Shown here piece by piece: positions 2,456-63,627 of a stretch of 64,000 bases of DNA. The position numbers and the translations under genes are program-made. The notes under the pieces were generated by a model that saw only the letters and a program-made list of their open reading frames with translations, did not search any database and had not been told where the DNA came from. Source of the DNA: Astropecten irregularis. Lineage: Eukaryota; Echinodermata; Asteroidea; Paxillosida; Astropectinidae. Position 1 is the first letter of the stretch; each line of letters opens with the position of its first letter. The stretch covers positions 17,938,931 to 18,002,930 of the forward strand of contig OZ020255.1 in assembly GCA_963971285.1 (NCBI GenBank), read 5' to 3'.

Positions 2456-2840
2456 CCTCCTCTGTTGTTCGGTCATGTTCCCATAGTCCTTGAATGGAGT
2501 CATCAGGTATCTTGTCAGGGGGTATGCCGTATCTCCCACTAAGAATCCATCTCCTGGGAATTTCTGTCCTGAAGATCTGTATATGCTAGAGTTACGGAAT
2601 ACAAGGGAATCATGGCAACTGCCAGGCCAGCCACACATTACATTGGTGAAAATTAGATGATGATCACATACCCCTTGAAGGACGACAGAATAGTGATGTT
2701 TTCGGTTGAAATATGCCTCGGGGTGAGATTCTGGTGCTTTAATACGAATGTGACATCCATCAATAGCTCCGATGATAGCAGAGAGATGTGCAAAGCCATT
2801 AGAAATTTCTCGTTGTGCTGCACCATCGTAGGGCCACTTC

Positions 2841-3044
2841 CAGTGGCGTCGCCAAGGGGGGGGGGGGGGGGGCAGGGGGGGGGGGGGGCATTCCCCCCTG
2901 GAATACCTCGTGCCCCCCCCCCCCCCCCGCGTGCCCCCCATTTGAGATTTGGGTTGGTGAACAAAAAAATAATATATAAAAAGTTTGCCCCCAACAATTG
3001 CTAGTGCCCCCCCCCCCAGACTCAAAACTCTGGTGACGCCACTG
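2841..3044. mobile_element. Non-autonomous hAT-like element with 8-bp target duplication
   Basis: Ends are CAGTGGCGTCGCC and GGTGACGCCACTG (12 of 13 positions complementary), flanked on both sides by the direct repeat GCCACTTC (2833-2840 and 3045-3052). An 8-bp duplication and CAGTGGCG-type ends are typical of hAT elements. The interior is mainly long G and C runs. Removing the element and one GCCACTTC restores the HARBI1-like reading frame, so it inserted after that gene was in place. Confidence 0.8.
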
Positions 3045-3979
3045 GCCACTTCACAATGCTCGGCATGAGATGGGTTTTTACCGCATATGCTACCTTCTTG
3101 CAGCAGGTGTGTGTCGTTGACTTGGACAATCCAAAACGGTCAGACATAGACCGAAATGATTCCAAGTTGCCTGTGTAGATGACAACATGTACACCTGTTT
3201 GTAATTGCCCAATGCCCATTTATTGAATTTTCTTTCATCGTTCTGATAGAATAAAATGCTTTTCAATTGACACCGATTGAGATTAGAATCCTTAGCAGTT
3301 ATATGAAATATTCAATTTATGGTGTGCCTGAGTGGGACCTTAATAATTCCATATCATTTCATAATATTGTTACATTTGAGCATGATATTTTCCATGTGTT
3401 ACAACATATCATCGTCACGGTACTACTTACTACAGTGTGGATGCAGAAATGTGAGACTGAAAGTGAACCCAATATTGCTTTGTTTGCAGTATTTACACTG
3501 AAATATTTATAAAAAATGAAGTAAATATATTTATCATTGCATTTTGTATATACCTGCTGAACATTTCTGGAAAGCATGCATGTCCAAGTATTGTTTGTAT
3601 TTATGCATTTTTATTTATTTGTAAATACCAGAGGTACTCATATGAGTCTGCTTATTCAGTTATTTATAAAACTCAGCCGGACAGAGCAAACAATAAAATT
3701 TGTTAAGGAACTTTGAGGTGCACAACTTCACATCCCATTTAAGAAATTGTGGCTTTCTTATAAATGTTTGTTATCAGAATTTTAATATTTTTATGTTAAT
3801 ATTGTTTGTTACATGAATATTGAGAGTCAACTACAAATCATAAAGGTATTAAATGGATTGGAAACTTATATTGGTTTTGCTGTTTGTTTTTATTTTTGCC
3901 TGAAACCGCTGTCTCCAGTTTTAGGCCTATTCATGAAACTAATTTATAAGTTTTAAGGCTTTGCATGGTGACAATTGGT

Positions 3980-5917: not shown

Positions 5918-6131
5918 ATGATGGGGCAAATTGGGACCATCCGATCCGTGAGCCCAAAGGGAATGTTCCTGATGCTACTTTTGGCAAGTGCCGCCCACCG
6001 TACTATTTCTCAGAGCCTGCCTAGCGCTCAACAGGCATGTCAAATCAGCACGGAGTTTAGATCTGTTGATCAACCGAGTTTTATCCCTATCACGACTCAG
6101 GATGCTATAGTGGGAAACGGCAGAGTTGAAG
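5918..6131 (+). CDS. Exon 1: signal peptide and start of Reeler-like region
   Basis: Two adjacent ATGs (5918 and 5921) precede a hydrophobic stretch, MFLMLLLASAAHRTIS, typical of a signal peptide. A Cys follows shortly after (QQACQIS), as in Reeler domains. The donor is GAAG/GTCAGT, phase 1. Start chosen: first ATG after upstream codons lacking one. An upstream non-coding exon cannot be excluded. Confidence 0.75.
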
Positions 6132-9100
6132 GTCAGTAAAGAGTCTACCTGTATTTATACATCGGAGTGAGAACATTTAATTTCATGAGATATTCCATAC
6201 AAATCGTCGGGAAGTATAGGCCTATGATATAATAGTATTAGGGATCAGATAATCCAAAGTCGAATTTCGTTTTAGGGGTATTTAGCTCAGGGCGCCCCTT
6301 TTTAATACTGATGGTTCTCATTTCCGACCGACCCATTATTTTGGGCTCCGACCGAAGAAAAAGCAACCTTTTTTTGCCGCCGACCCTGTCAGAATGGCAT
6401 AATATAAAAAAAAAAGAAAAAAAAAAAAGAATCCCAGAATTTCTGGAGACAAAATTTTTCTCTAAAAATCCTGGGAAGTACAGATTCATGGGCACAAATA
6501 TCAAGGAAGATACAGCAACAGTCATCTGTGCAAAGTTCAGTCCCATACGCGTCGGTGGCGACTTTTTGAGAAAATCGTGAAAAACGGCCACAGTATTTCT
6601 GAAGTCTTTTCTCTTTTATTTTTGATCTATTAAAAGATCGTTGTTTTACTACCGGTGATTTCTGGAAAAATACACCATTTCAGGCGGAACAATTTTAACG
6701 GTGGGTTTCTATCACCACCATCTTCATACCCTGAAAGTCAACGTAAATCTGTGAACATTTCTGTTTTGGTTTCTTACCAAAGTATGATACTACCTTTAAA
6801 TATACTGTGCACTGGTTCTGATCTTTATACTCAGCTCTCGTGAACTTCGGGCAGTCGGGTCCCTTAACTCAGTTTGTCCTGCAAGCCTGGGAAGTCGCCG
6901 AAGGTACGGGTGATCCTTTCATGTCGATTGGTCAGTGGTTACAACCGTTATATCCGAACTTCAACCTAGCGAACTGCAGCATGGACCACGACGCCGTGTT
7001 TTTGAATTCCTTCAGCACTGAACCTGGCGTCTTAATGTTTACATGGGTTCCAAGCAGTGGGCAGTACTTATTCGATTTCCGGTAGGTACACATGTATATA
7101 TATGTGGGAATTATTGATAAAATAATGAAGTTGTATATAATGGAACACCATTATTTATGTTTCTTTTGGGCAGGAGTACTCTTCTCACAATCATGTTAAT
7201 CTATAATCTCCAAAATGCATTCGTAAAACAAGGCCGTGATGCACTCAAACAGAACAGCACTCAAACTTTGTCTGATCCAACATGTACATGAATGAAATAA
7301 AAAATCTGTGAAAATTTGAGCTCAATCGGACATCTGGATCAGTCACGAGAAAATAGCGAAAACCCGACTCAATTGTTCTTATAAAACATAAAGAATGGTT
7401 TTGATCTTACCCCGAGATCAAAACTGTTTTCGGTCTTTGTTTTTTTTCTGGTGGAAATATCTTGAAGGAATGTGTCTTCCAGCACCATCTTCATAACCTG
7501 AAAGTTATACGTAAATCTGTGAACATTTCTGTTCGGGCATGTTACCAACCATGAACCATGTACCGTAACCGAGTCATACACCTTTTTGATACACGACGAG
7601 TTGTTTGTCTTTAAAGGACATGTGGAAAACTCCAATGCATGACAACGCCTCTTTTACATGGTTCGTGATTTCACCCACTTCCACAGCTGCATGTTTCAGT
7701 GTATTATGATCACAATGTTGGATTTCATATGGTGATTCGATTAGCATATTCATGAGCAAAACCATGACGTCATCAATGTCGCTACATTCAATAATTGAAT
7801 GATCACAGGTTTTCTGAATTGTTATTTCCTCTTCAGCTTCTTTGTGTTGAATAACTTATGTTTCTTTCAAAACCATACAGCGGCATTTCATTTGTCCAAT
7901 ATCACAAAATGGGGCAAGTACGAACTTTCAATATCATTGTTGTGTGGGTTTTATTTTGTTATTGTGGGCTCCTCAACATGGGCAAAGGCATGAAAAATGC
8001 ACAATATTGCAAAGTCATTCAATGAGCTATCACAATATAATGCTGGTTGGAAACCTTAAATAAGACTTGCAATTTGCTTTCTCCATATAAAGGCCCCAAA
8101 GGCTTGAATAAAAGTTTCAACCCAATTTCATGCAGAGATTACTCGGCAAACCATAAACACCCTGACAAAATGTTGGCATATCAGAGGAAACATTACTGTT
8201 TCAGTTTTGATATCATTGATCTTTTTTTCACACATTATTATTTTTTTTTCATTTTAGCGCCGTGGGAGTAACATTTGATCAGCAGAATGTATACTTCAGA
8301 TCAGAAATCCGTGAGTATTGGTGTTAACTTCGCAGATAATGACGATAATGGAGATGACGTCATTTCTGCCACTCAATTGAAATTGAATGTTCATATTCTA
8401 AAAGTGGTGTAACATTTTGGGAATGAACCGTATAGATGATGAGATTAGAACTTGACTTCTCGTCTGTTAAGAACTTACATTGCTATTGAAGCCAATTATG
8501 GTATCATCACGTCTTGGAACTGATAGTGTAACGCACATTTTTTCATATAGTACGACGTCATTAGGACGCGTCTCAATTAGAGATGTTGCTTTTCTGTTAT
8601 TTACGTTATTTATTATTATTTATTTAAGTTGCATAACTTTAAAAACCTGCCATCGATCATTGCTCTATGGTCTGATAGGGCTCCAATGAGCTGGCCTTAA
8701 TTTTAATGAAAGTAATGTGGTAATATAGAGGCAGAATGAATCAAATTGGACTGAACTGAGGTTTGACTCTGCGATGTCTGGAATGACAGTTGTACTTCAA
8801 CATATGTTTCTCATTTGTGAAACAGTTGAAACTGAAATGTTTGAATTGATGTCTTTGTTGTGTTTGCAAGATTGAACTAATTATTATGTATTTTCTGTTG
8901 CATTTTCACACTGTTTATTTCTGGATTACATGATATTTCTTGAGTTGTTGACTTGGGGTGGTAAACTTTATCTTGTTCCATTATGTGCTGACTTCATATC
9001 TTATGAATTTTGTTTTCAGGCGATGGTGTGCCACCAACAATTGCCTGCCCGGACAACGTATTTCAGCAAGTCACAACTGGCAATCAAAATGGAGCAACAG

Positions 9101-12100
9101 TGTTTTGGAATTTACCAACAGCTACTGGCAACACCGGAATTACTCTAACTGTTGTCCTGACCTCCAATGCACAGCAAGGACCTGGTTCCTTCTTCACCTT
9201 TGGATCTTATAGTATTAGTTACAGAGCTACTGATCAATCTGGCAATTCAAATTTCTGTACATTCACTGTGACAGTTGGTACGTTTTCTTTGAGTGACATA
9301 GTCTCAATCTCCCCTACTTTCCAATTTTAATTTTTTACAGTTTCAAAAACAGAAAAAAAATTATTTCTTCTTTGTTAAATAATTATTAATCCCAATTGCC
9401 CTAATATTAATGAAAGGAATACAGTAATAAACACCAATTTGACAGCATAACATCCCATCCGTCATTACTGCAGTGTCCCTTCCCGCCTTTTGTGTGGCAA
9501 CAATAGAATTTACGCTCTATCACATTATTACTGTGGGGATACACTGCAAGGATTGGATGATTTGAAGTGATTTTTCTCAACATACAGGATTAGTCTTTTG
9601 GCATTTCTCCCACCCTTCAAAAAGAACTCTCTGATGTGTGACAAACATAAAACCATAATTCTGTCTTTTAAAATGAACCCTTAGCTCTTTTCACTGAAGA
9701 ATTAAGATGAATTTCTAAATCTTTCACTTTTTTTACCTTAAATTTGATGAATATTTTTAAAGTTATGAATTTTCTTTTTCCTCCTTCTTTCATTAGTTGA
9801 TGGAGTGCCACCCGTGGTTGTATGCCCAGCCAATTTTGCTTTCACAATTGATTTTGGGAGTGGTGGAAGGGAGGTGACTTGGGCTGATCCTACCGTAGGT
9901 GATAATTCTGGCAGTGTGACTCTGGTGTCCAACACCCACAACTCGAATGATATGTTCCAAGTTGGTCAGACTACAGTAACCTACGTCTACCGGGATGCTG
10001 CTGGCAACAGGAATCAGTGCTCTTTCACGGTTTCAATAACTGAACGTAAATATTGTTTTTCGTAGTTCAGTGATGGTTAATCCCAATTTCCCTGATATTA
10101 ATGAAAGTAATGTGGTAATATAGAGACATAATTAATACATTGGACTGAACTTAGGTTTGACTCTGCGATGTCTAGAATGACAGTTGTACTATAGCATATG
10201 TTTCTCATTTGTGAAACAGTTGAAACCGAAATGTCTTTGTTGTGTTTGCAAGATTGAACTAATTATTATGTATTTTCTGTTGCATTTTCAAACTGTTAAC
10301 TTCTGGATTACATGATATTTCTTGAGTTGTTGACTTGGGGTGGTAACTTTGTCTTGTTCCATTATGTGCTGACTTCATATCTTATGAATTTTGTTTTCAG
10401 GCGATGGTGTGCCACCAGCAATTACCTGCCCGGACAACGTTTTTCAGCAAATCACAACTGGCAATCAAAATGGAGCAACAGTGTTTTGGAATTCACCACT
10501 AGCTACTGACAACACCGGAATTCCTCCAACTGTTGCCCTGACCTCCAATGCACAACAAGGACCTGGTTCCTTCTTCACCTTTGGATCTTATAGTATTAGT
10601 TACAGAGCTACTGATCAATCTGGCAATTCAAATTTCTGTACATTCACTGTGACAGTTGGTACGTTTTCTTTGAGTGACATAGTCTCAAACTCCCCTACTT
10701 TCCAATTTTAATTTTTTACAGTTTCAAAAACAGAAAAAAAATTATTTCTTCTTTGTTAAATAATGATTAATCCCAATTGCCCTAATATTAATGAAAGAAA
10801 TACAGTAATAAACACCAATTTGACATCCCATCCGTCATTACTGCAGTGTCCCTTCCCGCCTTTTGTGTGGCAACAATAGAATTTACGCTCTATCACATTA
10901 TTACTGTGGGGATCGGATACACTGCAAGGATTGGTTGATTTGAAGTGATTTTTCTCAACAAACAGGATTAGTCTTTTGGCATTTCTCCCACCCTTCAAAA
11001 AGAACTCTCTGATGTGTGACAAACATAAAACCATAATTCTGTCTTTTAAAATTAACCCTTTGCTCTTTTCACTGAAGAAGTAAGATGAATTTCTGAATCT
11101 TTCACTTTTTTTACCTTAAATTTGATGAATATTTTTGAAGTTATGAATTTTCTTTTCCCTCCTTCTTTCATTAGTTGATGGAGTGCCACCCGTGGTTGTA
11201 TGCCCAGTCAATTTAGCTTTCACAATTGATTTTGGGAGTGGTGGAAGGGAGGTGACTTGGGCTGATCCTACCGTAGGTGATAATTCTGGCAGTGTGACTC
11301 TGGTGTCCAACACCCACAACTCGAATGATATGTTCCAAGTTGGTCAGACTACAGTAACCTACGTCTACCGGGATGCTGCTGGCAACAGGAATCAGTGCTC
11401 TTTCACGGTTTCAATAACTGAACGTAAATATTGTTTTTCGTGGTTCAGTGATGGTTAATCCCAATTTCCCTGATATTAATGAAAGTAATGTGGTAATATA
11501 GAGACATAATTAATACATTGGACTGAACTTAGGTTTGACTCTGCGATGTCTAGAATGACAGTTGTACTATAGCATATGTTTCTCATTTGTGAAACAGTTG
11601 AAACCGAAATGTCTTTGTTGTGTTTGCAAGATTGAACTAATTATTATGTATTTTCTGTTGCATTTTCAAACTGTTAACTTCTGGATTACATGATATTTCT
11701 TGAGTTGTTGACTTGGGGTGGTAACTTTGTCTTGTTCCATTATGTGCTGACTTCATATCTAATGAATTTTGTTTTTCAGGCGATGGTGTGCCACCAGCAA
11801 TTACCTGCCCGGACAACGTTTTTCAGCAAATCACAACTGGCAATCAAAATGGAGCAACAGTGTTTTGGAATTCACCACTAGCTACTGACAACACCGGAAT
11901 TCCTCCAACTGTTGCCCTGACCTCCAATGCACAACAAGGACCTGGTTCCTTCTTCACCTTTGGATCTTATAGTATTAGTTACAGAGCTACTGATCAATCT
12001 GGCAATTCAAATTTCTGTATATTCACTGTGACAGTTGGTACGTTTTCTTTGAGTGACATAGTCTCAAACTCCCCTACTTTCCAATTTTAATTTTTTACAG

Positions 12101-15100
12101 TTTCAAAAACAGACAAAAAATTTATTTCTTCTTTGTTAAATAATGATTAATCCCAATTGCCCTAATATTAATGAAAGAAATACAGTAATAAACACCAATT
12201 TGACATCCCATCCGTCATTACTGCAGTGTCCCTTCCCGCCTTTTGTGTGGCAACAATAGAATTTACGCTCTATCACATTATTACTGTGGGGATCGGATAC
12301 ACTGCAAGGATTGGTTGATTTGAAGTGATTTTTCTCAACATACAGGATAAGTCTTTTGGCATTTCTCCCACCCTTCAAAAAGAACTCTCTGATGTGTGAC
12401 AAACATAAAACCATAATTCTGTCTTTTAAAATGATCCCTTTGCTCTTTTCACTGAAGAAGTAAGATGAATTTCTGAATCTTTCACTTTTTTTACCTTAAA
12501 TTTGATGAATATTTTTGAAGTTATGAATTTTCTTTTCCCTCCTTCTTTCATAAGTTGATGGAGTGCCACCCGTGGTTGTATGCCCAGTCAATTTAGCTTT
12601 CACAATTGATTTTGGGAGTGGTGGAAGGGAGGTGACTTGGGCTGATCCTACCGTATCTGATAATTCTGGCAGTGTGACTCTGGTGTCCAACACCCACAAC
12701 TCGAATGATATGTTCCAAGTTGGTCAGACTACAGTAACCTACGTCTACCGGGATGCTGCTGGCAACAGGAATCAGTGCTCTTTCACGGTTTCAATAACTG
12801 AACGTAAATATTGTTTTTCGTGGTTCAGTGATGGTTAATCCCAATTTCCCTGATATTAATGAAAGTAATGTGGTAATATAGAGACATAATTAATACATTG
12901 GACTGAACTTAGGTTTGACTCTGCGATGTCTAGAATGACAGTTGTACTATAGCATATGTTTCTCATTTGTGAAACAGTTGAAACCGAAATGTCTTTGTTG
13001 TGTTTTCAAGATTGAACTAATTATTATGTATTTTCTGTTGCATTTTCAAACTGTTAACTTCTGGATTACATGATATTTCTTGAGTTGTTGACTTGGGGTG
13101 GTAACTTTGTCTTGTTCCATTATGTGCTGATTTCATATCTTATGAATTTTGTTTTCAGGCGATGGTGTGCCACCAGCAATTACCTGCCCGGACAACGTTT
13201 TTCAGCAAATCACAACTGGCAATCAAAATGGAGCAACAGTGTTTTGGAATTCACCACTAGCTACTGACAACACCGGAATTCCTCCAACTGTTGCCCTGAC
13301 CTCCAATGCACAACAAGGACCTGGTTCCTTCTTCACCTTTGGATCTTATAGTATTAGTTACAGAGCTACTGATCAATCTGGCAATTCAAATTTCTGTACA
13401 TTCACTGTGACAGTTGGTACGTTTTCTTTGAGTGACATAGTCTCAAACTCCCCTTCTTTCCAATTTTAATTTTTTACAGTTTCAAAAACAGAAAAAAAAT
13501 TATTTCTTCTTAGTTAAATAATGATTAATCCCAATTGCCCTAATATTAATGAAAGAAATACAGTAATAAACACCAATTTGGCATCCCATCCGTCATTACT
13601 GCAGTGTCCCTTCCCGCCTTTTGTGTGGCAACAATAGAATTTACGCTCTATCACATTATTACTGTGGGGATCGGATACACTGCAAGGATTGGTTGATTTG
13701 AAGTGATTTTTCTCAACATACAGGATTAGTCTTTTGGCATTTCTCCCACCCTTCAAAAAGAACTCTCTGATGTGTGACAAACATAAAACCATAATTCTGT
13801 CTTTTAAAATTAACCCTTTGCTCTTTTCACTGAAGAAGTAAGATGAATTTCTGAATCTTTCACTTTTTTTACCTTAAATTTGATGAATATTTTTGAAGTT
13901 ATGAATTTTCTTTTCCCTCCTTCTTTCATTAGTTGATGGAGTGCCACCCGTGGTTGTATGCCCAGTCAATTTAGCTTTCACAATTGATTTTGGGAGTGGT
14001 GGAAGGGAGGTGACTTGGGCTGATCCTACCGTATCTGATAATTCTGGCAGTGTGACTCTGGTGTCCAACACCCACAACTCGAATGATATGTTCCAAGTTG
14101 GTCAGACTACAGTAAGCTACGTCTACCGGGATGCTGCTGGCAACAGGAATCAGTGCTCTTTCACGGTTTCAATAACTGAACGTAAATATTGTTTTATATG
14201 GTTCAGTGATGGTTAATCCCAATTTCCCTGATATTAATGAAAGTAATGTGGTAATATAGAGACAGAATTAATACATTGGACTTAGGTTTGACTCTGCGAT
14301 GTCTAGAATGACAGTTGTACTATAGCATATGTTTCTCATTTGTGAAACAGTTGAAACCGAAATGTCTTTGTTGTGTTTGCAAGATTGAACTAATTATTAT
14401 GTATTTTCTGTTGCATTTTCAAACTGTTAACTTCTGGATTACATGATATTTCTTGAGTTGTTGACTTGGGGTGGTAAACTTTGTCTTGTTCCATTATGTG
14501 CTGACTTCATATCTTATGAATTTCGTTTTCAGGCGATGTTGTGTCACCAACAATTGCCTGCCCGGACAACGTATTTCAGCAAGTCACAACTGGCAATCAA
14601 AATGGAGCAACAGTGACTTGGAATTCACCAACAGCTACTGGCAACACCGGAATTCCTCTAACTGTTGTCCTGACCTCCAATGCACAGCAAGGACCTGGTT
14701 CCTTCTTCACCTTTGGATCTTATAGTATTAGTTACAGAGCTACTGATCAATCTGGCAATTCAAATTCCTGTACATTCATTGTGACAGTTGGTACGTTTTC
14801 TTTGAGTGACATAGTCTCAAACTCCCCTACTTTCCAATTTTAATTTTTTACAGTTTCAAAAACAGAAAAAACATTATTTCTTCTTTGTGAAATAATGATT
14901 AATCCCAATTGCCCTAATATTAATGAAAGGAATACAGTAATAAACACCAATTTGACATCCCATCCGTCATTACTGCAGTGTCCCTTCCCGCCTTTTGTGT
15001 GGCAACAATAGAATTTACGCTCTATCACATTATTACTGTGGGGATACACTGCAAGGATTGGATGATTTGAAGTGATTTTTCTCAACATACAGGATTAGTC

Positions 15101-18100
15101 TTTTGGCATTTCTCCCACCCTTCAAAAAGAACTCTCTGATGTGTGACAAACATAAAACCATAATTCTGTCTTTTAAAATTAACCCTTTGCTCTTTTCACT
15201 GAAGAAGTAAGATGAATTTCTGAATCTTTCACTTTTTTTACCTTAAATTTGATGAATATTTTTGAAGTTATGAATTTTCTTTTCCCTCCTTCTTTCATTA
15301 GTTGATGGAGTGCCACCCGTGGTTGTATGCCCAGTCAATTTAGCTTTCACAATTGATTTTGGGAGTGGTGGAAGGGAGGTGACTTGGGCTGATCCTACCG
15401 TATCTGATAATTCTGGCAGTGTGACTCTGGTGTCCAACACCCACAACTCGAATGATATGTTCCAAGTTGGTCAGACTACAGTAAGCTACGTCTACCGGGA
15501 TGCTGCTGGCAACAGGAATCAGTGCTCTTTCACGGTTTCAATAACTGAACGTAAATATTGTTTTATATGGTTCAGTGATGGTTAATCCCAATTTCCCTGA
15601 TATTAATGAAAGTAATGTGGTAATATAGAGACAGAATTAATACATTGGACTGAACTTAGGTTTGACTCTGCGATGTCTAGAATGACAGTTGTACTATAGC
15701 ATATGTTTCTCATTTGTGAAACAGTTGAAACCGAAATGTCTTTGTTGTGTTTGCAAGATTGAACTAATTATTATGTATTTTCTGTTGCATTTTCAAACTG
15801 TAACTTCTGGATTACATGATATTTCTTGAGTTGTTGACTTGGGGTTGTAAACATTGTCTTGTTCCATTATGTGCTGACTTCATATCTTATGAATTTCGTT
15901 TTCAGGCGATGTTGTGTCACCAACAATTGCCTGCCCGGACAACGTATTTCAGCAAGTCACAACTGGCAATCAAAATGGAGCAACAGTGACTTGGAATTCA
16001 CCAACAGCTACTGGCAACACCGGAATTCCTCTAACTGTTGTCCTGACCTCCAATGCACAGCAAGGACCTGGTTCCTTCTTCACCTTTGGATCTTATAGTA
16101 TTAGTTACAGAGCTACTGATCAATCTGGCAATTCAAATTCCTGTACATTCATTGTGACAGTTGGTACGTTTTCTTTGAGTGACATAGTCTCAAACTCCCC
16201 TACTTTCCAATTTTAATTTTTTACAGTTTCAAAAACAGAAAAAACATTATTTCTTCTTTGTGAAATAATGATTAATCCCAATTGCCCTAATATTAATGAA
16301 AGGAATACAGTAATAAACACCAATTTGACATCCCATCCGTCATTACTGCAGTGTCCCTTCCCGCCTTTTGTGTGGCAACAATAGAATTTACGCTCTATCA
16401 CATTATTACTGTGGGGATACACTGCAAGGATTGGATGATTTGAAGTGATTTTTCTCAACATACAGGATTAGTCTTTTGGCATTTCTCCCACCCTTCAAAA
16501 AGAACTCTCTGATGTGTGACAAACATAAAACCATAATTCTGTCTTTTAAAATTAACCCTTTGCTCTTTTCACTGAAGAAGTAAGATGAATTTCTGAATCT
16601 TTCACTTTTTTTACCTTAAATTTGATGAATATTTTTGAAGTTATGAATTTTCTTTTCCCTCCTTCTTTCATTAGTTGATGGAGTGCCACCCGTGGTTGTA
16701 TGCCCAGTCAATTTAGCTTTCACAATTGATTTTGGGAGTGGTGGAAGGGAGGTGACTTGGGCTGATCCTACCGTATCTGATAATTCTGGCAGTGTGACTC
16801 TGGTGTCCAACACCCACAACTCGAATGATATGTTCCAAGTTGGTCAGACTACAGTAAGCTACGTCTACCGGGATGCTGCTGGCAACAGGAATCAGTGCTC
16901 TTTCACGGTTTCAATAACTGAACGTAAATATTGTTTTATATGGTTCAGTGAAGGTTAATCCCAATTTCCCTGATATTAATGAAAGTAATGTGGTAATATA
17001 GAGACAGAATTAATACATTGGACTGAACTTAGGTTTGACTCTGCGATGTCTAGAATGACAGTTGTACTATGGCATATGTTTCTCATTTGTGAAACAGTTG
17101 AAACCGAAATGTCTTTGTTGTGTTTGCAAGATTGAACTAATTATTATGTATTTTCTGTTGCATTTTCAAACTGTTAACTTCTGGATTACATGATATTTCT
17201 TGAGTTGTTGACTTGGGGTGGTAAACTTTGTCTTGTTCCATTATGTGCTGACTTCATATCTTATGAATTTCGTTTTCAGGCGATGTTGTGTCACCAACAA
17301 TTGCCTGCCCGGACAACGTATTTCAGCAAGTCACAACTGGCAATCAAAATGGAGCAACAGTGACTTGGAATTCACCAACAGCTACTGGCAACACCGGAAT
17401 TCCTCTAACTGTTGTCCTGACCTCCAATGCACAGCAAGGACCTGGTTCCTTCTTCACCTTTGGATCTTATAGTATTAGTTACAGAGCTACTGATCAATCT
17501 GGCAATTCAAATTCCTGTACATTCATTGTGACAGTTGGTACGTTTTCTTTGAGTGACATAGTCTCAAACTCCCCTACTTTCCAATTTTAATTTTTTACAG
17601 TTTCAAAAACAGAAAAAACATTATTTCTTCTTTGTGAAATAATGATTAATCCCAATTGCCCTAATATTAATGAAAGGAATACAGTAATAAACACCAATTT
17701 GACATCCCATCCGTCATTACTGCAGTGTCCCTTCCCGCCTTTTGTGTGGCAACAATAGAATTTACGCTCTATCACATTATTACTGTGGGGATACACTGCA
17801 AGGATTGGATGATTTGAAGTGATTTTTCTCAACATACAGGATTAGTCTTTTGGCATTTCTCCCACCCTTCAAAAAGAACTCTCTGATGTGTGACAAACAT
17901 AAAACCATAATTCTGTCTTTTAAAATTAACCCTTTGCTCTTTTCACTGAAGAAGTAAGATGAATTTCTGAATCTTTCACTTTTTTTACCTTAAATTTGAT
18001 GAATATTTTTGAAGTTATGAATTTTCTTTTCCCTCCTTCTTTCATTAGTTGATGGAGTGCCACCCGTGGTTGTATGCCCAGTCAATTTAGCTTTCACAAT

Positions 18101-21100: not shown

Positions 21101-24100
21101 TGAAAGTAATGTGGTAATATAGAGACAGAATTAATACATTGGACTGAACTTAGGTTTGACTCTGCGATGTCTAGAATGACAGTTGTACTATAGCATATGT
21201 TTCTCATTTGTGAAACAGTTGAAACCGAAATGTCTTTGTTGTGTTTGCAAGATTGAACTAATTATTATGTATTTTCTGTTGCATTTTCAAACTGTTAACT
21301 TCTGGATTACATGATATTTCTTGAGTTGTTGACTTGGGGTGGTAAACTTTGTCTTGTTCCATTATGTGCTGACTTCATATCTTATGAATTTCGTTTTCAG
21401 GCGATGTTGTGTCACCAACAATTGCCTGCCCGGACAACGTATTTCAGCAAGTCACAACTGGCAATCAAAATGGAGCAACAGTGACTTGGAATTCACCAAC
21501 AGCTACTGGCAACACCGGAATTCCTCTAACTGTTGTCCTGACCTCCAATGCACAGCAAGGACCTGGTTCCTTCTTCACCTTTGGATCTTATAGTATTAGT
21601 TACAGAGCTACTGATCAATCTGGCAATTCAAATTCCTGTACATTCATTGTGACAGTTGGTACGTTTTCTTTGAGTGACATAGTCTCAAACTCCCCTACTT
21701 TCCAATTTTAATTTTTTACAGTTTCAAAAACAGAAAAAAAATTATTTCTTCTTTGTGAAATAATGATTAATCCCAATTGCCCTAATATTAATGAAAGGAA
21801 TACAGTAATAAACACCAATTTGACATCCCATCCGTCATTACTGCAGTGTCCCTTCCCGCCTTTTGTGTGGCAACAATAGAATTTACGCTCTATCACATTA
21901 TTACTGTGGGGATACACTGCAAGGATTGGATGATTTGAAGTGATTTTTCTCAACATACAGGATTAGTCTTTTGGCATTTCTCCCACCCTTCAAAAAGAAC
22001 TCTCTGATGTGTGACAAACATAAAACCATAATTCTGTCTTTTAAAATTAACCCTTTGCTCTTTTCACTGAAGAAGTAAGATGAATTTCTGAATCTTTCAC
22101 TTTTTTTACCTTAAATTTGATGAATATTTTTGAAGTTATGAATTTTCTTTTCCCTCCTTCTTTCATTAGTTGATGGAGTGCCACCCGTGGTTGTATGCCC
22201 AGTCAATTTAGCTTTCACAATTGATTTTGGGAGTGGTGGAAGGGAGGTGACTTGGGCTGATCCTACCGTATCTGATAATTCTGGCAGTGTGACTCTGGTG
22301 TCCAACACCCACAACTCGAATGATATGTTCCAAGTTGGTCAGACTACAGTAAGCTACGTCTACCGGGATGCTGCTGGCAACAGGAATCAGTGCTCTTTCA
22401 CGGTTTCAATAACTGAACGTAAATATTGTTTTATATGGTTCAGTGATGGTTAATCCCAATTTCCCTGATATTAATGAAAGTAATGTGGTAATATAGAGAC
22501 AGAATTAATACATTGGACTGAACTTAGGTTTGACTCTGCGATGTCTAGAATGACAGTTGTACTATAGCATATGTTTCTCATTTGTGAAACAGTTGAAACC
22601 GAAATGTCTTTGTTGTGTTTGCAAGATTGAACTAATTATTATGTATTTTCTGTTGCATTTTCAAACTGTTAACTTCTGGATTACATGATATTTCTTGAGT
22701 TGTTGACTTGGGGTGGTAAACTTTGTCTTGTTCCATTATGTGCTGACTTCATATCTTATGAATTTCGTTTTCAGGCGATGTTGTGTCACCAACAATTGCC
22801 TGCCCGGACAACGTATTTCAGCAAGTCACAACTGGCAATCAAAATGGAGCAACAGTGACTTGGAATTCACCAACAGCTACTGGAAACACCGGAATTACTC
22901 TAACTGTTGTCCTGACCTCCAATGCACAGCAAGGACCTGGTTCCTTCTTCACCTTTGGATCTTATAGTATTAGTTACAGAGCTACTGATCAATCTGGCAA
23001 TTCAAATTCCTGTACATTCATTGTGACAGTTGGTACGTTTTCTTTGAGTGACATAGTCTCAAACTCCCCTACTTTCCAATTTTAATTTTTTACAGTTTCA
23101 AAAACAGAAAACAAATTATTTCTTCTTTGTGAAATAATGATTAATCCCAATTGCCCTAATATTAATGAAAGGAATACAGTAATAAACACCAATTTGACAT
23201 CCCATCCGTCATTACTGCAGTGTCCCTTCCCGCCTTTTGTGTGGCAACAATAGAATTTACGCTCTATCACATTATTACTGTGGGGATACACTGCAAGGAT
23301 TGGATGATTTGAAGTGATTTTTCTCAACATACAGGATTAGTCTTTTGGCATTTCTCCCACCCTTCAAAAAGAACTCTCTGATGTGTGACAAACATAAAAC
23401 CATAATTCTGTCTTTTAAAATTAACCCTTTGCTCTTTTCACTGAAGAAGTAAGATGAATTTCTGAATCTTTCACTTTTTTTACCTTAAATTTGATGAATA
23501 TTTTTGAAGTTATGAATTTTCTTTTCCCTCCTTCTTTCATTAGTTGATGGAGTGCCACCCGTGGTTGTATGCCCAGTCAATTTAGCTTTCACAATTGATT
23601 TTGGGAGTGGTGGAAGGGAGGTGACTTGGGCTGATCCTACCGTATCTGATAATTCTGGCAGTGTGACTCTGGTGTCCAACACCCACAACTCGAATGATAT
23701 GTTCCAAGTTGGTCAGACTACAGTAAGCTACGTCTACCGGGATGCTGCTGGCAACAGGAATCAGTGCTCTTTCACGGTTTTAATAACTGAACGTAAATAT
23801 TGTTTTATATGGTTCAGTGATGGTTAATCCCAATTTCCCTGATATTAATGAAAGTAATGTGGTAATATAGAGACAGAATTAATACATTGGACTGAACTTA
23901 GGTTTGACTCTGCGATGTCTAGAATGACAGTTGTACTATAGCATATGTTTCTCATTTGTGAAACAGTTGAAACCGAAATGTCTTTGTTGTGTTTGCAAGA
24001 TTGAACTAATTATTATGTATTTTCTGTTGCATTTTCAAACTGTTAACTTCTGGATTACATGATATTTCTTGAGTTGTTGACTTGGGGTGGTAAACTTTGT

Positions 24101-27100
24101 CTTGTTCCATTATGTGCTGACTTCATATCTTATGAATTTCGTTTTCAGGCGATGTTGTGTCACCAACAATTGCCTGCCCGGACAACGTATTTCAGCAAGT
24201 CACAACTGGCAATCAAAATGGAGCAACAGTGACTTGGAATTCACCAACAGCTACTGGCAACACCGGAATTACTCTAACTGTTGTCCTGACCTCCAATGCA
24301 CAGCAAGGACCTGGTTCCTTCTTCACCTTTGGATCTTATAGTATTAGTTACAGAGCTACTGATCAATCTGGCAATTCAAATTCCTGTACATTCATTGTGA
24401 CAGTTGGTACGTTTTCTTTGAGTGACATAGTCTCAAACTCCCCTACTTTCCAATTTTAATTTTTTACAGTTTCAAAAACAGAAAAAAAATTATTTCTTCT
24501 TTGTGAAATAATGATTAATCCCAATTGCCCTAATATTAATGAAAGGAATACAGTAATAAACACCAATTTGACATCCCATCCGTCATTACTGCAGTGTCCC
24601 TTCCCGCCTTTTGTGTGGCAACAATAGAATTTACGCTCTATCACATTATTACTGTGGGGATACACTGCAAGGATTGGATGATTTGAAGTGATTTTTCTCA
24701 ACATACAGGATTAGTCTTTTGGCATTTCTCCCACCCTTCAAAAAGAACTCTCTGATGTGTGACAAACATAAAACCATAATTCTGTCTTTTAAAATTAACC
24801 CTTTGCTCTTTTCACTGAAGAAGTAAGATGAAATTCTGAATCTCTCACTTTTTTTACCTTAAATTTGATGAATATTTTTGAAGTTATGAATTTTCTTTTC
24901 CCTCCTTCTTTCATTAGTTGATGGAGTGCCACCCGTGGTTGTATGCCCAGTCAATTTAGCTTTCACAATTGATTTTGGGAGTGGTGGAAGGGAGGTGACT
25001 TGGGCTGATCCTACCGTATCTGATAATTCTGGCAGTGTGACTCTGGTGTCCAACACCCACAACTCGAATGATATCTTCCAAGTTGGTCAGACTACAGTAA
25101 GCTACGTCTACCGGGATGCTGCTGGCAACAGGAATCAGTGCTCTTTCACGGTTTCAATAACTGAACGTAAATATTGTTTTATATGGTTCAGTGATGGTTA
25201 ATCCCAATTTCCCTGATATTAATGAAAGTAATGTAATAATAATAATAATAATAATAAAGATTTATAAAGCGCAACAATTATTTCAATATATTCTATTGCG
25301 CTTTAAGAGCTCATAGAAGCTAGTTAATGCTATTGAACAAATGAGATTTCAGTTTAGATTTGAAACTTGCGAGAGAAGGGGCTTTCCTTATATCAAGTGG
25401 TAATACATTCCATAACCTGGGGGCTGCACACAAAAATGACCTATCTCCAAGAGTAACTTTTGTTCTATATGAGGGAATTTGTAGTGTAAATTTGTCATGT
25501 CTGCTACGTAAGTTATGACCATGTGATTCAGATTTTAGATTCAGTAGTTCAATTATGTAATTTGGGGCTTGACCATTCAGTGCTTTGTAAATTATCATTA
25601 GTATTTTGAAAGTGATTCTTTGTCGAACGGGTAACCAATGTAGTTCCTTAAGGAGAGGGGTGACTGAAGAGAACTTGGGGAGATTATAGATAAGTCGTGC
25701 ACATGTATTTTGGACCCTTTGAAGCTTGGAAATTTGTGCATCTGGCAGCCCATACAGTAGGCTGTTACAGTAGTCTAATTTGCTAGTGACACACGCATGA
25801 ATGACTGTTTTCATTGTATCTTTATCAAAGTATTTACGAATACGTCTCAAGTTATATATCATGAAATAGGCTGATTTGCAAGTACTAGTTATATGGGCTT
25901 CCATATTTAGGTTGGTATCAAATAAAACACCTAGGTTCCTAACAGTATCAGATGGAGTTATAACACAGTCGCCTACTGAAATATCCCGTGCCCTGAATTT
26001 TGAAACCTGACGTGGAGTACCAATGGCCAAGAGTTCAGTTTTCCTATCATTTAACTTCAGTTTGTTTTGTAACATCCAGGTCCTAATATAACTAATACAT
26101 GTTTCCAGAAGTGAAATACAATCATTTTCATTTGGTGAACCAGGACAGAACGAAAGATACAATTGTGTGTCGTCTGCATAGCAGTGACAGTTGATACCCG
26201 GAAACTTATTTTGGATATTTGTCAGGAGACGACTCGTGTATAATGTAAACAACAAAGGGCCGAGACGTGACCCTTGAGGAACACCGAAGGGCACCCTGAA
26301 TTCCTCCGAGACAATGTCATCGATTTCAATTATCTGCTTTCTGTCAGACAAGTAGGATTCAATCCAATCTAGAATATTGCCACTAATCCAGAAATGGCTT
26401 TTCAAGGTTTTTAACAAATTCAAATGATCTATCGTATCGAAAGCACTGCTCATATCAAGTAAAAGGAGCAGGGTAATCTTCTGATTGTCCATTGACATAA
26501 GAAGATCATTTTTGATTCTGAGCAATGTTGTTTCCGTACTATGAAATTTTCGGTATGCAGATTGATTGAATGGTAACAATGAGTTTGATTCAAGGTGCTC
26601 TATGATTTGTTGGGTAGCAATGTTGGTGGTAATATAGAGACATAATTAATACATTGGACTGAACTAAGGTTTGACTCTGCCATGTCTAGAATGACAGTTG
26701 TACTATAGCATATGTTTCTCATTTGTGAAACAGTTGAAACCGAAATGTCTTTGTTGTGTTTGCAAGATTGAACTAATTATTATGTATTTTCTGTTGCATT
26801 TTCAAACTGTTAACTTCTGGATTACATGATATTTCTTGAGTTGTTGACTTGGGGTGGTAAACTTTGTCTTGTTCCATTATGTGCTGACTTCATATCTTAT
26901 GAATTTTGTTTTCAGGCGATGTTGTGTCACCAACAATTGCCTGCCCGGACAACGTATTTCAGCAAGTCACAACTGGCAATCAAAATGGAGCAACAGTGAC
27001 TTGGAATTCACCAACAGCTACTGGCAACACCGGAATTACTCTAACTGTTGTCCTGACCTCCAATGCACAGCAAGGACCTGGTTCCTTCTTCACCTTTGGA

Positions 27101-30100
27101 TCTTATAGTATTAGTTACAGAGCTACTGATCAATCTGGCAATTCAAATTCCTGTACATTCACTGTGACAGTTGGTACGTTTTCTTTGAGTGACATAGTCT
27201 CAAACTCCCCTACTTTCCAATTTTAATTTTTTACAGTGTCAAAAACAGAAACCATTTTTTTTTTCTTCTTTGTTAAATAATGATTAATCCCAATTGCCCT
27301 AATATTAATGAAAGGAATACAGTAAAAACACCAATTTGACATCCCATCCGTCATTACTGCAGTGTCCCTTCCCGTCTTTTGTGTGGCAACAATATAATTT
27401 ACGCTCTATCACATTATTACTGTGGGGATACACTGCAAGGATTGGTTGATTTGAAGTGATTTTTCTCAACATACAGGATTAGTCTTTTGGCATTTCTCCC
27501 ACCCTTCAAAAAGAACTCTCTGATGTGTGACAAACATAAAACCATAATTCTGTCTTTTAAAATGAACCCTTTGCTCTTTTCACTGAAGAAGTAAGATGAA
27601 TTTCTGAATCTTTCACCTTTTTTTTACCTTAAATTTGATGAATATTTTTGAAGTTATGAATTTTCTTTTTCCTCCTTCTTTCATTAGTTGATGGAGTGCC
27701 ACCTGTGGTTGTATGCCCAGTCAATTTAGCTTTCACAATTGATTTTGGGAGTGGTGGAAGGGAGGTGACTTGGGCTGATCCTACCGTATCTGATAATTCT
27801 GGCAGTGTGACTCTGGTGTCCAACACCCACAACTCGAATGATATCTTCCAAGTTGGTCAGACTACAGTAACCTACGTCTACCGGGATGCTGCTAGCAACA
27901 GGAATCAGTGCTCTTTCACGGTTTCAATAACTGAACGTAAATATTGTTTTTCTTGTTTCAGTGATGGTTAATCCCAATTTCCCTGATATTAATGAAAGTA
28001 ATGTGGTAATATAGAGACAGAATTAATACATTGGACTGAACTTAGGTTTGACTCTGCGATGTCTAGAATGACAGTTGTACAATAGCATATGTTTCTCATT
28101 TGTGAAACAGTTGAAACCGAAATGTCTTTGTTGTGTTTGCAAGATTGAACTAATTATTATGTATTTTCTGTTGCATTTTCAAACTGTTAACTTCTGGATT
28201 ACATGATATTTCTGGAGTTGTTGACTTGGGGTGGTAAACTTTGTCTTGTTCCATTATGTGCTGACTTCATATCTTATGAATTTTGTTTTCAGGCGATGGT
28301 GTGCCACCAACAATTGCCTGCCCGGACGACGTTTTTCAGCAAATCACAACTGGCAATCCATATGGAGCAACAGTGACTTGGCATTCACCAACAGCTACTG
28401 ACAACACCGGAATTCCTCCAACTGTTGTCCTGACCTCCAATGCACAGCAAGGACCTGGTTCCTTCTTCACCTTTGGATCTTATAGTATTAGTTACAGAGC
28501 TACTGATCAATCTGGCAATTCAAATTCCTGTACATTCATTGTGACAGTTGGTACGTTTTCTTTGAGTGACATAGTCTCAAATTCCCTTATTTTTATATTT
28601 TTGTTTGCACATTTACATCCCATCTGTCATTACTGCGGTGTCCCTGCGCGTCTTTTGTGTGGTAACAAAAGAATTTACGCTCCTTCACACTATTACTGTG
28701 GGGATACACTGCATGGATTGGTTGATTTGACATAATTTTTTTCAGCATACAATATTAGTCTTTGGGCATTTATCCCACTTTTCAAAAAGGACTCTCTTAT
28801 GTGTGACAAACATAAAACAGTAATTCTGTCTTTTAAAATAAACCCTTTGCTCTTTTCACTGAAGAAGTAAGATGAATTTGTCAATCTTTCACCATTTATT
28901 GGCTTTTCCGTGTTCAACGGAAAAGGTATTGTTTTTGTTCGGATTTTGTTGGCTTTTCCGATTTTAATCGGAAAAGGTATTGCTTTTGTTCTTTTTTTTG
29001 GCTTTTCCGTGTTCAATGGAAAAGGTATTGTTTTTGTTCTGTTTTGGGCTTTTCCGATTTCAATTGGAAAAGGTATTGTTTTTGTTCTGTTTTTTGGGCT
29101 TTTCCGTGTTCAACGGAAAAGGTATTGTTTTTGTTCTGTTTTTTTTTTCTTCAACTCCTCAATTTGTACTGACTTTGTACACAAATTTTGTCTGCGGCAC
29201 TTCGGTCATTTTTTTATAGCCGATTTTAACCAAACTTGGTCTGAAGGAAGTCCATATAGGGTGGTTGTCTCCCGAAGCTTTTCGTCATCATGACGTCATA
29301 AGTTGCATGTGACAAGCAATTCAAATTTAATAATCAAAATCTTCAAAAATCAACAAAAAATCAACGGTTTGAGATATTAAGTTCATTCCTTCACCAATAG
29401 TGATTGTTAGGCAGGGTCTTTCTTTGTGACACATTGCTTGACCTCTGTGACCTCTACTTTCGGTCAAACAGGAAGTAGCTCATCATTTAAAAGTGGTAAG
29501 AGCTGAGATCATGGTTCTTTCACCAAAGGTCAAAGTTAGGCAAGGTCTTTCATTTGTGACACATTGCTTGACCTCTGTGACCTCTACTTCCGGTCAAACA
29601 GGAAGTATCTCCTCATTTAAAAGTGGTAAGAGCTATATGATCTGTTGTTTGCTGACCATGAATATCCAATGGAATTTTCAATAGTGGTTTGTTTTATTGG
29701 CAAACTATTTTTACGCTAAGCATTTTTTGTGCAAGCAGCTCTATGAAATTGGCCCCTGATCGATTCATTAAAAAGGCCACGCCCCATTGGAAGACCAATC
29801 ACAGTTTTGATCGATGCACGCGCGCGTGCCGACGCGCGTGTAATGCGCGCGTCTGCAAGGAACGTGGGGTGTGGTGTGGTATTGGAGAGGAACACGTGTT
29901 CGTTGCCCACGTGGTGGCGTTGGGCGGGGCTTACTATCGGTTGAATAACGTAATTATGCGTAGCAGTAATCATTACAATTGTTGATATGTACAGATTGCC
30001 TGTGTTTCACGGACATCGGTGACGGTGTTATGGAAGGCTGTATCATACCAGACTTCTGTGATATCAACGAGCTGTTGAAAAGTCTGGCCGAGGTAAACTT

Positions 30101-33100
30101 AGTTCTCGAAGGGATAATAACTTTTACATATTTATCTGTTACGATTCCTAAGTCCAGTATAATGAATAGGCAACCAGTCTACTCTATTTTGGTCTAATGA
30201 TGTAATGCCTATTTATAGCAATGTCGTGTCACCGTCATACATGACTCAGCAATGTTAACTCAGAACGTATCCACGCTATCATTATATTAATATTACTCCT
30301 ATATTGCTCCTATTATCACGACGTAAAACACAACAAAATACGACTGAGAAAGCGACGTATGAACAAATTTCACGCCAAACTACTTGCAAAAGTGTAGAAA
30401 GTATTTTAAATTCTTCACCAGTATAATGTTATCGAAATTCAAACCTCATTAATCTCGCAAAATGAACAGCAATTAGTGCAAGACCTAGGTATAAACATGA
30501 AACGTGCATGGTATACAAACAGCGGACGCTCAAAACATGCTTGCGCAATTGTGAGCATGCGCGCGTTGTATTGCGCGTGCGTGCGCGTGCGCTGTTGATT
30601 TAAGACCGACTCTCCAAAAGTCTTCCATTAGCCGTGTGACAAATCTCTTGCTGCGGCAAAATACACACGCACCTATAGCAGCCACTAGCCAGTGACTGCA
30701 GCCGTTTCCATAGACTTGTGTGTTATTTGCGATCGCAGACAGTGATTTGGTACACGGGCTTAATCTAACTCACGAAAACGATGACATGCAGACGTTAGAA
30801 TTGCAAACAATTTGGAATGTGCCTGACTTTTTATAAGAGCGTAAAATTCGCATCGCAAAAAGTTAGAACCGATCGAACTCTTCAGGTATTTAATGGGTTT
30901 TCTTTCTCTGATTTGATTGGAAGATCACGGTAAAGGGATATAACGTGGAGCGAGTGGCCATAGCCCTGGCTAATGCGACTAGCAACTATACTGAGATTGA
31001 TCGTAATGGGCTTAGGGCCGTCTCAACGGTGCTAGAAAATATCGTTGCTGTGAATACTTCATCAACTCAGGTATGTCCATAATTATAATCACACGCTTTA
31101 GGCAACGTTTTTTAGTCAATGAATGGGGCATTTCATTTTATGTATAGTTGTTTTGTACGTTTGGCAACTTTATCCACATCAAGCAAGCATTCATGCCACT
31201 GACTGCAAAACGTATTCATTGAAAACGGTATTACCTTGGAAAGACATATTAATCTAGATACCAAATTATGCAGCCATTTGAATCTTAACTGATTCAACTT
31301 TTTCCCTGAAGGTTACTGGAAACGTCATAACGACCGTTGACAGCATTCTGAACGTTCCAAACGAGGAGTTTGAAAGAAGCTTGTCCTCGGCAAACATCCT
31401 CAGCAACTTTGAAACCCAGCTGACGTTAGTCCAGCAGAATCTGACGAGAACGGAGAGGAACGTTGCAGTTGAAGTCCTGTTGCCAACCACCAGAGACGAC
31501 TCTATCGACGTCGCTTACGCCACCATCCCTCGGAGTGGAACAGTGGACGACTCGCTGCAAGACAACGAGGAAAATGTGTACTTCGATCGGCAAGATGTGC
31601 CACGTGCCATCGCAGAGGCATCTGTCAGCCTGCCTGGTGAAGCGTTTGAAAACATCGTTGAAAAAGGTACGCTAACGCCGCCAGTTGTCAGTCCTGTCTT
31701 CATACCTGTCTTCATAGTGCCTATATGGTCCCATAATATTTGCCTTTACATTAATCACTAAAATGCATACAAGCAGAACATCACATCGGTTGCTTTTATC
31801 TCTGTAGTGTCCCAGGATGTCACATACATCAAACGTAGAGGTACTATTTGGAGCACATGGGATTCATCCCTTCGAACCTAAAACTGACATGGCACAAGTA
31901 GTTGGCCTTTATCTGATCATAAATGTCTTCTACAATTAATGCAAGGTGTAATATATTACTTGCTTCTCTCCCAGATCCACCTGTTGTATTCACAGTGTAC
32001 CTGACACCCAAACTGTTCCAGTCATTTGGAGCAAACGTTCTGCCAAATGGGAGTCAACTATTGGTCAACAGTCGCATCATATCAGCAAATATTGGCCGTG
32101 TTGGAGAAATAGTACAAAACCTGATGAGTAGAGTTATCACGTCCTTCTTACCCACAAATGTGAGTACATTGTCTTTGAAAGCTAAGCATATAGATACAAA
32201 AAAGGAACCATGAAAAATGTAAAACTAGACTTTCGTCTCTGATCATTCTGAAATGGCCAGATAAGAGCCATAGGCCTATGTTCAGTGTTGACTGGTCCTG
32301 TGTTGTGTAGGTCAAAACAGAATGATCATGTCATGTTGTGGTCACTCACGGGGCGGTTTGGTACCCAACATACAATCTCGCTGTTCATTTTTAGCATGGT
32401 ACAATTTTGACCCATAATGGTTCTTGGTTTGTCATCAGGACACGCTTACCAACGAGCCGACCTGTGTCTTTTGGGATGAACTGGCAAGTAACTGGTCAAC
32501 CGCCGGATGCACTCGATCAGTGATGAACACCGGAACTGGACCCGCCGTCATCTGCAACTGTGACCACCTCACCAGCTTTGCTATTCTCGTGGTAAGAAGT
32601 TTAGAATGTCTCTTGTAAATTGGGACTTTAGAAGTCTGGTCTTTTGCGGTGGTCTCGCAGATAAAGGCAAAATGCAAGTCCCATGATTTAAAGTTGGAAT
32701 GTTTATCAATATTCAATCAATCAATCAGTGGGAGCATGCGCCACGGCAGCGCGTTGCCGCATCTATCTTCGAGCGGTACTCCTTCGGTCTTCTGATGGCC
32801 ATCCCCAGCTAGGCAGCCACGCGACCCATACCAATCTCAGCAAAACAACGATTCATCTGACGCAACCACGTGTCACGTGGACGCCCTTCCGGGCGAGTCC
32901 TACCAGGATAGGTTCTCTCAGAGAGAGAATTCTCCTGGCTGGATCACTTGCAGGGAATCTAGCCATCAATTTTGTCTGTCGTGCATGAACTGCCATATGA
33001 CTCGCCAATATCAGTTGCAATGATTCTGGCACCAAGTGTCATGTAATGCTCGAATGCGTATGAACCAACCGTCTCCATCGAAATACTTGTCTGTCATTTA

Positions 33101-51385: not shown

Positions 51386-51487
51386 CTTGACCGTTGTGTC
51401 TGGTTGTTCCGCCAAAGTGAGTTTCTAGTTCGTCACCACGAATACGACAACTTATTCAATTCAGCAATGGATTGTTGATGTTGAGGC

Positions 51488-54901: not shown

Positions 54902-63627
<8,726 letters not shown>

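Follow-up and report, generated by a model that had tools for sequence, protein, structure and literature searches.

A starfish adhesion GPCR with a Reeler-like head and a stalk of HYR domains that looks captured from a matrix-type gene

The window, meaning here the whole stretch of 64,000 nucleotides that was analysed (contig C19, 17938931-18002930, within the 475.7-Mb genome of Astropecten irregularis), contains a gene that we consider likely to encode an adhesion GPCR, one of three tandem sisters with a common Reeler-like head and a common GAIN/GPS/7TM body. In this gene an ancestral EGF stalk was probably replaced by HYR DNA of contig C9, and the stalk would serve as a spacer or lever. The parts of this receptor are known; the new element is the replacement of the stalk between sisters, and the order of head, HYR array and 7TM domain was unmatched in the searches made. 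Judged from the sequences, the stalk of one receptor seems to have been swapped in evolution, with the tip and the signalling end kept.

Gene model and HYR array of the window receptor

Rebuilding of the window receptor, designated copy C, from the raw DNA yielded a model of 39 exons (5918-34563) with 9162 nt including the stop codon and 3053 aa, in which 38/38 introns have a GT donor and an AG acceptor, the phases are compatible and the sole stop is terminal; the same exon number and length, with matching phases and no internal stop, had been given by an earlier sequence-only reading. The acceptor context of the HYR exon at 12555 is slightly unusual, with the AG retained. A Pfam scan of the whole protein identified 27 HYR (PF02494) stretches together with a GPS and a 7tm_2 domain, and the 27 HYR domains previously proposed for the stalk are hence found both as exons and as Pfam stretches. 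The adhesion-GPCR body with an intact GPS and seven helices, also part of that reading, is borne out by matches to PF01825 (E=2.3e-13), whose sequence CNCDHLTSFAILV contains the HL/T cleavage triad and the Stachel, and to PF00002 (E=1.8e-30), which extends over profile positions 3-250 of 250. With respect to the GAIN region, PF16489 had no match in the window protein by Pfam scan and a weak one (0.0097) in the Acanthaster relative P0001 described below, GPR128_GAIN_subdomA matched the window protein weakly (0.077), and a sequence alignment to ADGRG6 21du covers query 60-588, across the GAIN region and the 7TM domain. Membership in CELSR/ADGRC was rejected, as the full-length window protein gave no cadherin match at E<=0.001 (0.067 on one HYR pair, short of the cut-off), and the protein contains 0 EGF modules by Pfam, unlike EGF-TM7 receptors (ADGRE). 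Copy C is probably a self-cleaving adhesion GPCR.

Table 1. Features of the window receptor (window positions) and locations of the three sister genes (contig C19)
Feature	Position	Strand	Evidence or remark
Exon 1: signal peptide and start of Reeler-like head, phase-1 end	5918..6131	+	gene model; 97.7% / 99.1% nt identity to paralogs A / B
Exon 2: core of Reeler-like head, phase 1 to 2	6835..7081	+	gene model, profile comparison, intron phases
Exon 3: end of head, phase 2 to 1	8258..8310	+	gene model; 100% / 98.1% to paralogs A / B
Left cassette boundary, intron 3 (after head exon 3): paralog A identity ends, C9 HYR-array identity begins	8700	.	DNA comparison
Stalk: exons 4-30, 27 HYR exons, phase 1-1, ~1374-nt repeat units	9020..28550	+	gene model, repeats, Pfam
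Intronic LINE-type insertion between exons 27 and 28 (unit C12), ~9 nt target duplication; reverse-transcriptase frame 25323-26645	25242..26625	-	sequence
Right cassette boundary: C9 identity ends ~28900-28906, paralog A identity resumes 29642, satellite-like sequence between	28906..29642	.	DNA comparison
Exon 31: short Cys-rich linker (DCLCFTDIGDGVMEGCIIPDFCD...)	29995..30092	+	gene model
Exons 32-34: GAIN region	30924-31070, 31312-31666, 31975-32159	+	gene model, alignment to ADGRG6
Exon 35: GPS, HL/T and Stachel-like TSFAILV	32439..32591	+	gene model, Pfam
Exons 36-39: seven-helix domain and short tail	33107-33216, 33538-33800, 33966-34044, 34155-34563	+	gene model, Pfam
Copy A	C19, about 17804.6-17838.1 kb		37 exons, 5301 nt, open ATG to stop; hand-spliced
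Copy B	C19, 17860.6-17909.8 kb		27 exons, 6120 nt, open ATG to stop; hand-spliced
Copy C (window)	C19, 17944.8-17973.5 kb		rebuilt model

In the stalk of copy C, HYR exons of two lengths alternate, 14 with 258 nt and 13 with 249 nt, and since every one of them is phase 1-1, stalk exons could be added or replaced in any number without a break of the frame. A pseudogene array was ruled out, the frames being open in 27/27 HYR exons. A PDB search with HYR returned four matches at E 0.026-0.093, with no single stretch passing. Pairwise comparison of the repeat units, from which unit C12 and three copy B units lengthened by insertions were excluded, revealed 0-8 mismatches and at most two gap columns over ~1374 nt among units C05-C11, with C06 and C07 identical across 1374 nt. 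Because these two units are identical, the count of 27 hinges on the assembly, and we attach a lesser but appreciable probability to a real array whose number is an assembly outcome, varies between alleles or is lowered by the skipping of many HYR exons in splicing. The near identity of C05-C11 favours such a reading, as does the phase, by which exon skipping would be frame-neutral; however, the outer units are distinguishable, one of them carrying a LINE insertion, and no N lies inside the window.

Around the receptor gene, several further features were observed, all of the coding ones on the minus strand. Two long open frame copies (509-2413 and 38268-40508, 93-96% DNA identity) flank the receptor, the second encoding somatomedin B and 7tm_2 domains, and a frame at 2453-3139, as judged by eye, presumably represents a piece of a PIF/Harbinger-type transposase. 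Three SRCR-type exons (40843-43438), one clear (8.8e-12) and two under the Pfam cut-off, are followed by a C-type lectin exon (50816-51424, 2.1e-13) and a GNAT acetyltransferase exon (56795-57226, 6.5e-13), and minisatellites occupy 54017-54613 (38-nt units) and 60208-60710 (21-nt units).

Three tandem sister genes and their common head

Genome searches were run separately for the head, the 7TM and the GAIN regions, and each returned three close places, all on C19. The head gave nine exon matches at E<=10 genome-wide, three per gene and nowhere else, and each head lies upstream of one GAIN/7TM body, the trio being arranged in tandem on one contig (Table 1). Copies A and B, like the C9 array described below, lie outside the window and were thus beyond the view of the sequence-only reading. 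In their aligned parts, the head and body exons of copies A and B have a DNA identity of 92-100% with their window counterparts. The stalk is built of 21 EGF exons, one divergent HYR exon and 3 further EGF exons in copy A, of 15 HYR exons in copy B and of 27 in copy C, and all stalk exons of the three genes are phase 1-1. Stalk exons of copy A were picked by EGF pattern and splice context, several having more than one possible acceptor, and their number is less certain; Pfam confirmed its HYR exon and the 8 of 24 EGF exons that were scanned. An Ig-like domain is about 4 nm long and an EGF domain about 3 nm, and a straight stalk would span, very roughly and from these lengths, ~110 nm in copy C, ~60 nm in copy B and ~75 nm in copy A. 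The intron of copy A that follows its single HYR exon contains a long tandem repeat (L049-L050, ~19.8-26.4 kb of the joined locus), which is open in minus-strand frames.

The head had been described in the sequence-only reading as a Reeler-like region of residues 1-171, a description that profile comparison and intron phases support and that Pfam does not. No family was matched at E<=10 by Pfam scans of residues 1-171 of copy C and of the heads of both sisters, the Pfam Reeler family had no match in Acanthaster P0001 or Asterias P0005, and a search of the genome with the PF02014 profile found 14 places, 0 of them on C19. A PDB sequence search of the head was likewise negative for Reeler, and head region 30-171 of a 933-aa query yielded 59 candidates in the protein database, 0 at E<=1, the Acanthaster head surfacing only via the body search. 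However, when a profile built from the three sister copies of head exon 2 was compared by hhalign with the Reeler exons of 6 of the 14 PF02014 genome places, a probability of 81.6% was obtained (E=1.1e-5, score 31.5). This score was reached by 0/200 column shuffles (maximum 19.1), and the other controls gave 13.3 for the reversed Reeler profile and 9.1, 9.7 and 7.0 for pieces of HYR, GAIN and EGF, respectively; the six Reeler exons themselves, each left out in turn, scored 73-112. With the Acanthaster head added to the head profile the probability was 96.3%, and with the Asterias N-terminus added as well it was 93.9% (score 44.2, reached by 0/100 shuffles, maximum 15.6), the Asterias N-terminus alone giving 4.2%. 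By eye, the Reeler core exon has a phase-1 start in 7/7 loci (L001-L007) and a phase-2 end in the 6/6 readable ones (L001-L006), head exon 2 being alike, and the first Reeler exon of an additional locus (L008) has a phase-1 end, like head exon 1. Single-sequence structure prediction of head exon 2 was uninformative (mean pLDDT 45.7). We describe the head as a divergent domain, Reeler-like and under the Pfam threshold.

The stalk cassette, the contig C9 array and selection

Copies A and C are ~90-96% identical in DNA up to a left break, and this identity resumes in the intron before exon 31, with breakpoints at C:8700 / A:4015 / B:4444 on the left and at C:29642 / A:28543 / B:44484 on the right. 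Between these breaks, copies B and C resemble a minus-strand array of HYR exons at 26117-26151 kb of contig C9. Identity to this array, introns included, begins exactly at C:8700 and B:4444 and ends in both copies ~607-613 nt past the start of the last HYR exon. The best C9 units are 92-95% identical to copy C and 90-93% to copy B, with 79-93% for other C9 units. Since both edges are common to B and C, the two probably go back to one capture event. Satellite-like sequence present at the right cassette edge (window 29385-29636) recurs dozens of times in the long introns of copy B (L053-L056), and such sequence may have aided recombination.

The C9 array contains at least 45 HYR exons at 81-94% protein identity (22 of one type and 23 of the other) among the matches listed, with 150 of 716 candidates scored. 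As read by eye, it is flanked on both sides by older HYR exons (35-64%) and on one side, the readable one, by EGF exons. The C9 gene thus shares its HYR units with copies B and C in DNA, introns included, and differs from them in that genome searches found neither a head nor a 7TM match on C9; a weak GPS-region match (26.999 Mb, E=0.32) lies about 0.85 Mb from the array. In the surrounding 26.10-26.81 Mb of C9 (genome G000), HYR exons form a large cluster that extends over both strands and presumably belongs to matrix genes of the hyalin type.

Selection differs along the receptor. In the 7TM exons, dN/dS is 0.07 for A-B (6 nonsynonymous versus 26 synonymous changes, binomial p=4e-11), 0.21 for A-C and 0.10 for B-C, and in the GAIN/GPS part it is 0.34-0.41. 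Two sister genes, both with open frames, repeat the order of head, stalk and body, and purifying selection acts on the 7TM exons, so that this three-part order stands above chance. In the head, the ratios of 1.05 (A-B), 2.0 (A-C) and 0.99 (B-C), on 21, 16 and 9 changes, indicate no detectable constraint among the sisters, a result hard to reconcile with a conserved ligand-binding tip. With each HYR variant counted once, synonymous and nonsynonymous variants number 4/29 in the window, 12/36 in copy B and 13/25 in a C9 sample from which three divergent A-type exons were dropped. Positive selection in the HYR array was rejected, as pairwise ratios above 1 were not significant in the window under this counting (p=0.11 versus neutral); the higher share of nonsynonymous variants in the window than in the C9 sample is borderline, at an uncorrected Fisher p=0.049. 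The body is conserved. The copies in the stalk seem to evolve neutrally, and the window array shows no more than a slight sign of accelerated change. Among body introns, the closest pair is A-C after exon 31, A-B after exon 34 and B-C in most others, and since it varies by intron, gene conversion between the sisters has probably blurred their history.

HYR domains are adhesion modules, and the main rival explanation, which we regard as doubtful although well short of negligible, holds that the HYR stalk is the binding part and not a spacer, that the uptake of matrix HYR domains let the receptor adhere to a hyalin-like coat by homophilic or matrix binding and that the head is secondary. The known role of HYR, the combination of HYR and EGF exons without a head or 7TM match in the C9 gene, the lack of detectable constraint on the head among the three copies and the excess of nonsynonymous variants over the C9 sample (4/29 vs 13/25) are in line with such binding; however, copy A and Acanthaster have EGF-type stalks, so that HYR binding is not family-wide, and neither array alone departs significantly from neutral.

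Relatives, direction of transfer and meaning of the proposed stalk exchange

Of 7996 candidates scored in a protein-database search with the body, 37 reached E<=1e-10, the best being from sea stars: body identity is 58% for Acanthaster planci P0001 (1021 aa), 54-59% for Patiria miniata P0002-P0004 (ADGRG7-like) and 43% for Asterias amurensis P0005 (ADGRG6-like). P0001 resembles the window receptor in its Reeler-like head (40/130 aligned residues identical), Cys linker and GPS/7TM part, and differs in having an EGF stalk and no HYR. Its name, 'cadherin EGF LAG seven-pass G-type receptor 1-like', is misleading because no cadherin family is reported in it (none at E<=10). In P0005 an N-terminal domain is followed by one EGF, and P0002 has three EGF; precomputed lists give a VWA match for P0003 and no domain in the stalk of P0004, on models that may be partial. 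HYR is absent from the domain lists of P0001-P0005, and 0 of the 13 relatives of ~1680-5340 aa found among 7976 scored candidates have it in their precomputed lists. Since the sea-star relatives are without HYR and P0001 has EGF, the ancestral stalk was most likely of EGF type and the HYR stalk most likely derived; with head, EGF stalk and body united in Acanthaster, the HYR stalk looks captured.

A phylogeny built from 22 A-type exons of C19, 12 of the 23 in the C9 array and one divergent C9 exon as root, 35 in total, places the C19 copies within the C9 diversity, with ultrafast bootstrap values of 92 and 97% at two outer nodes and 32-100%, many below 70, at inner nodes. The AU test did not reject a single clade for C9 (p=0.27) or for C19 (p=0.43), and because of this indecision the direction of capture rests mainly on context and outgroups. 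A transfer from the receptor to C9, or an ancestral HYR stalk with a gain of EGF by copy A, is compatible with those topologies and with the one divergent HYR exon kept in copy A; however, the Acanthaster and Asterias relatives have EGF and lack HYR, and the nearest outgroup HYR exon sits in C9, and we consider either course rather improbable. It is far less probable still that head, HYR array and 7TM part are separate genes wrongly joined in the model, an idea to which the ~0.5-1.4 kb introns between the parts and the fact that copy C is known from its gene model alone lend something, since order, phases and open frames are alike in three copies and the annotated Acanthaster protein unites head and body. 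Separate mRNAs for the three parts are accordingly unlikely on sequence grounds, and the claim of a single gene has gained two more complete models in the genome and one Acanthaster protein with head, EGF stalk and body.

Adhesion GPCRs bearing HYR occur elsewhere too, and that feature alone is not novel. A receptor of Amphiura filiformis, P0030 (SRCR, HYR, GPS and 7tm_2), also has HYR on an adhesion-GPCR body, and differs in its low similarity (26% identity over 56% of the query) and in having SRCR in place of a Reeler-like head, and a distant receptor of the same genome as the window, on contig C11 (L070, G000:C11:10157001-10166500), contains at least four divergent HYR exons and TTTPIP mucin-like repeats, as seen by eye, followed by a 7TM domain and a weak GPS match. 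No text on an HYR-stalk adhesion GPCR was found among the papers listed, a thin negative, and the readable text of PMC12716839 contains no HYR, though the paper is listed under 'hyr', 'HYR domain' and 'hyalin repeat'. The earlier statement that no named receptor has this order is in agreement with the literature searched and with the 13 long relatives. The mammalian EGF-TM7 receptors (ADGRE1-5, CD97/EMR2) offer the closest parallel in design, with EGF modules on a GAIN/7TM body whose number is varied by exons; their genes lie in tandem and have exchanged EGF exons. There, one module type is varied in number, whereas in the starfish sisters the module type itself is replaced. CD97 isoforms with 3-5 EGF differ in CD55 binding (PMC8191316).

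In the reading that we prefer, namely that of a captured HYR stalk, the ancestor would have had an EGF stalk, as in Acanthaster, and genomic DNA of a hyalin-like HYR gene of C9 would have displaced the stretch between two phase-1 introns before B and C diverged, the array then being lengthened by tandem duplication independently in B and C. In the resulting receptor the head would bind a partner, the stalk would act as a spacer or lever of exchangeable length, and a pull on the stalk would free the Stachel at the GPS and thereby switch on the 7TM domain. In the family at large (PMC13197933, a review; PMC8191316, on CD97 and CD55), the GAIN domain undergoes self-cleavage at the GPS, the resulting pieces remain associated and force or ligand can expose the Stachel. 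Since GPS and Stachel are intact here, self-cleavage and the Stachel step are fairly to be expected, and force sensing by the stalk is suggested by analogy only; the sequence-only reading had proposed that the stalk would place the tip far from the membrane and might serve mechanosensing.

More tentatively, and with less than even confidence, the three genes may be viewed as a natural stalk-exchange system, in which the signalling core is selectively fixed while the stalk segment between two phase-1 introns is a replaceable cassette, acquired in one piece from a matrix gene of a different contig and extended by tandem duplication, so that one animal has three receptors nearly alike in tip and switch and different in reach and stiffness. 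At the level of sequence, an array of matrix-type modules apparently moved into a signalling receptor, introns included. If the stalk-exchange reading is true, the stalk would be a mechanical part in which the type of domain is free. Whether the long ectodomain of adhesion GPCRs is a lever, a spacer or a ligand binder is the wider question to which the locus speaks, and three neighbours with a near-equal tip and switch and wholly different stalks provide a ready control set for the roles of stalk length and module type in activation.
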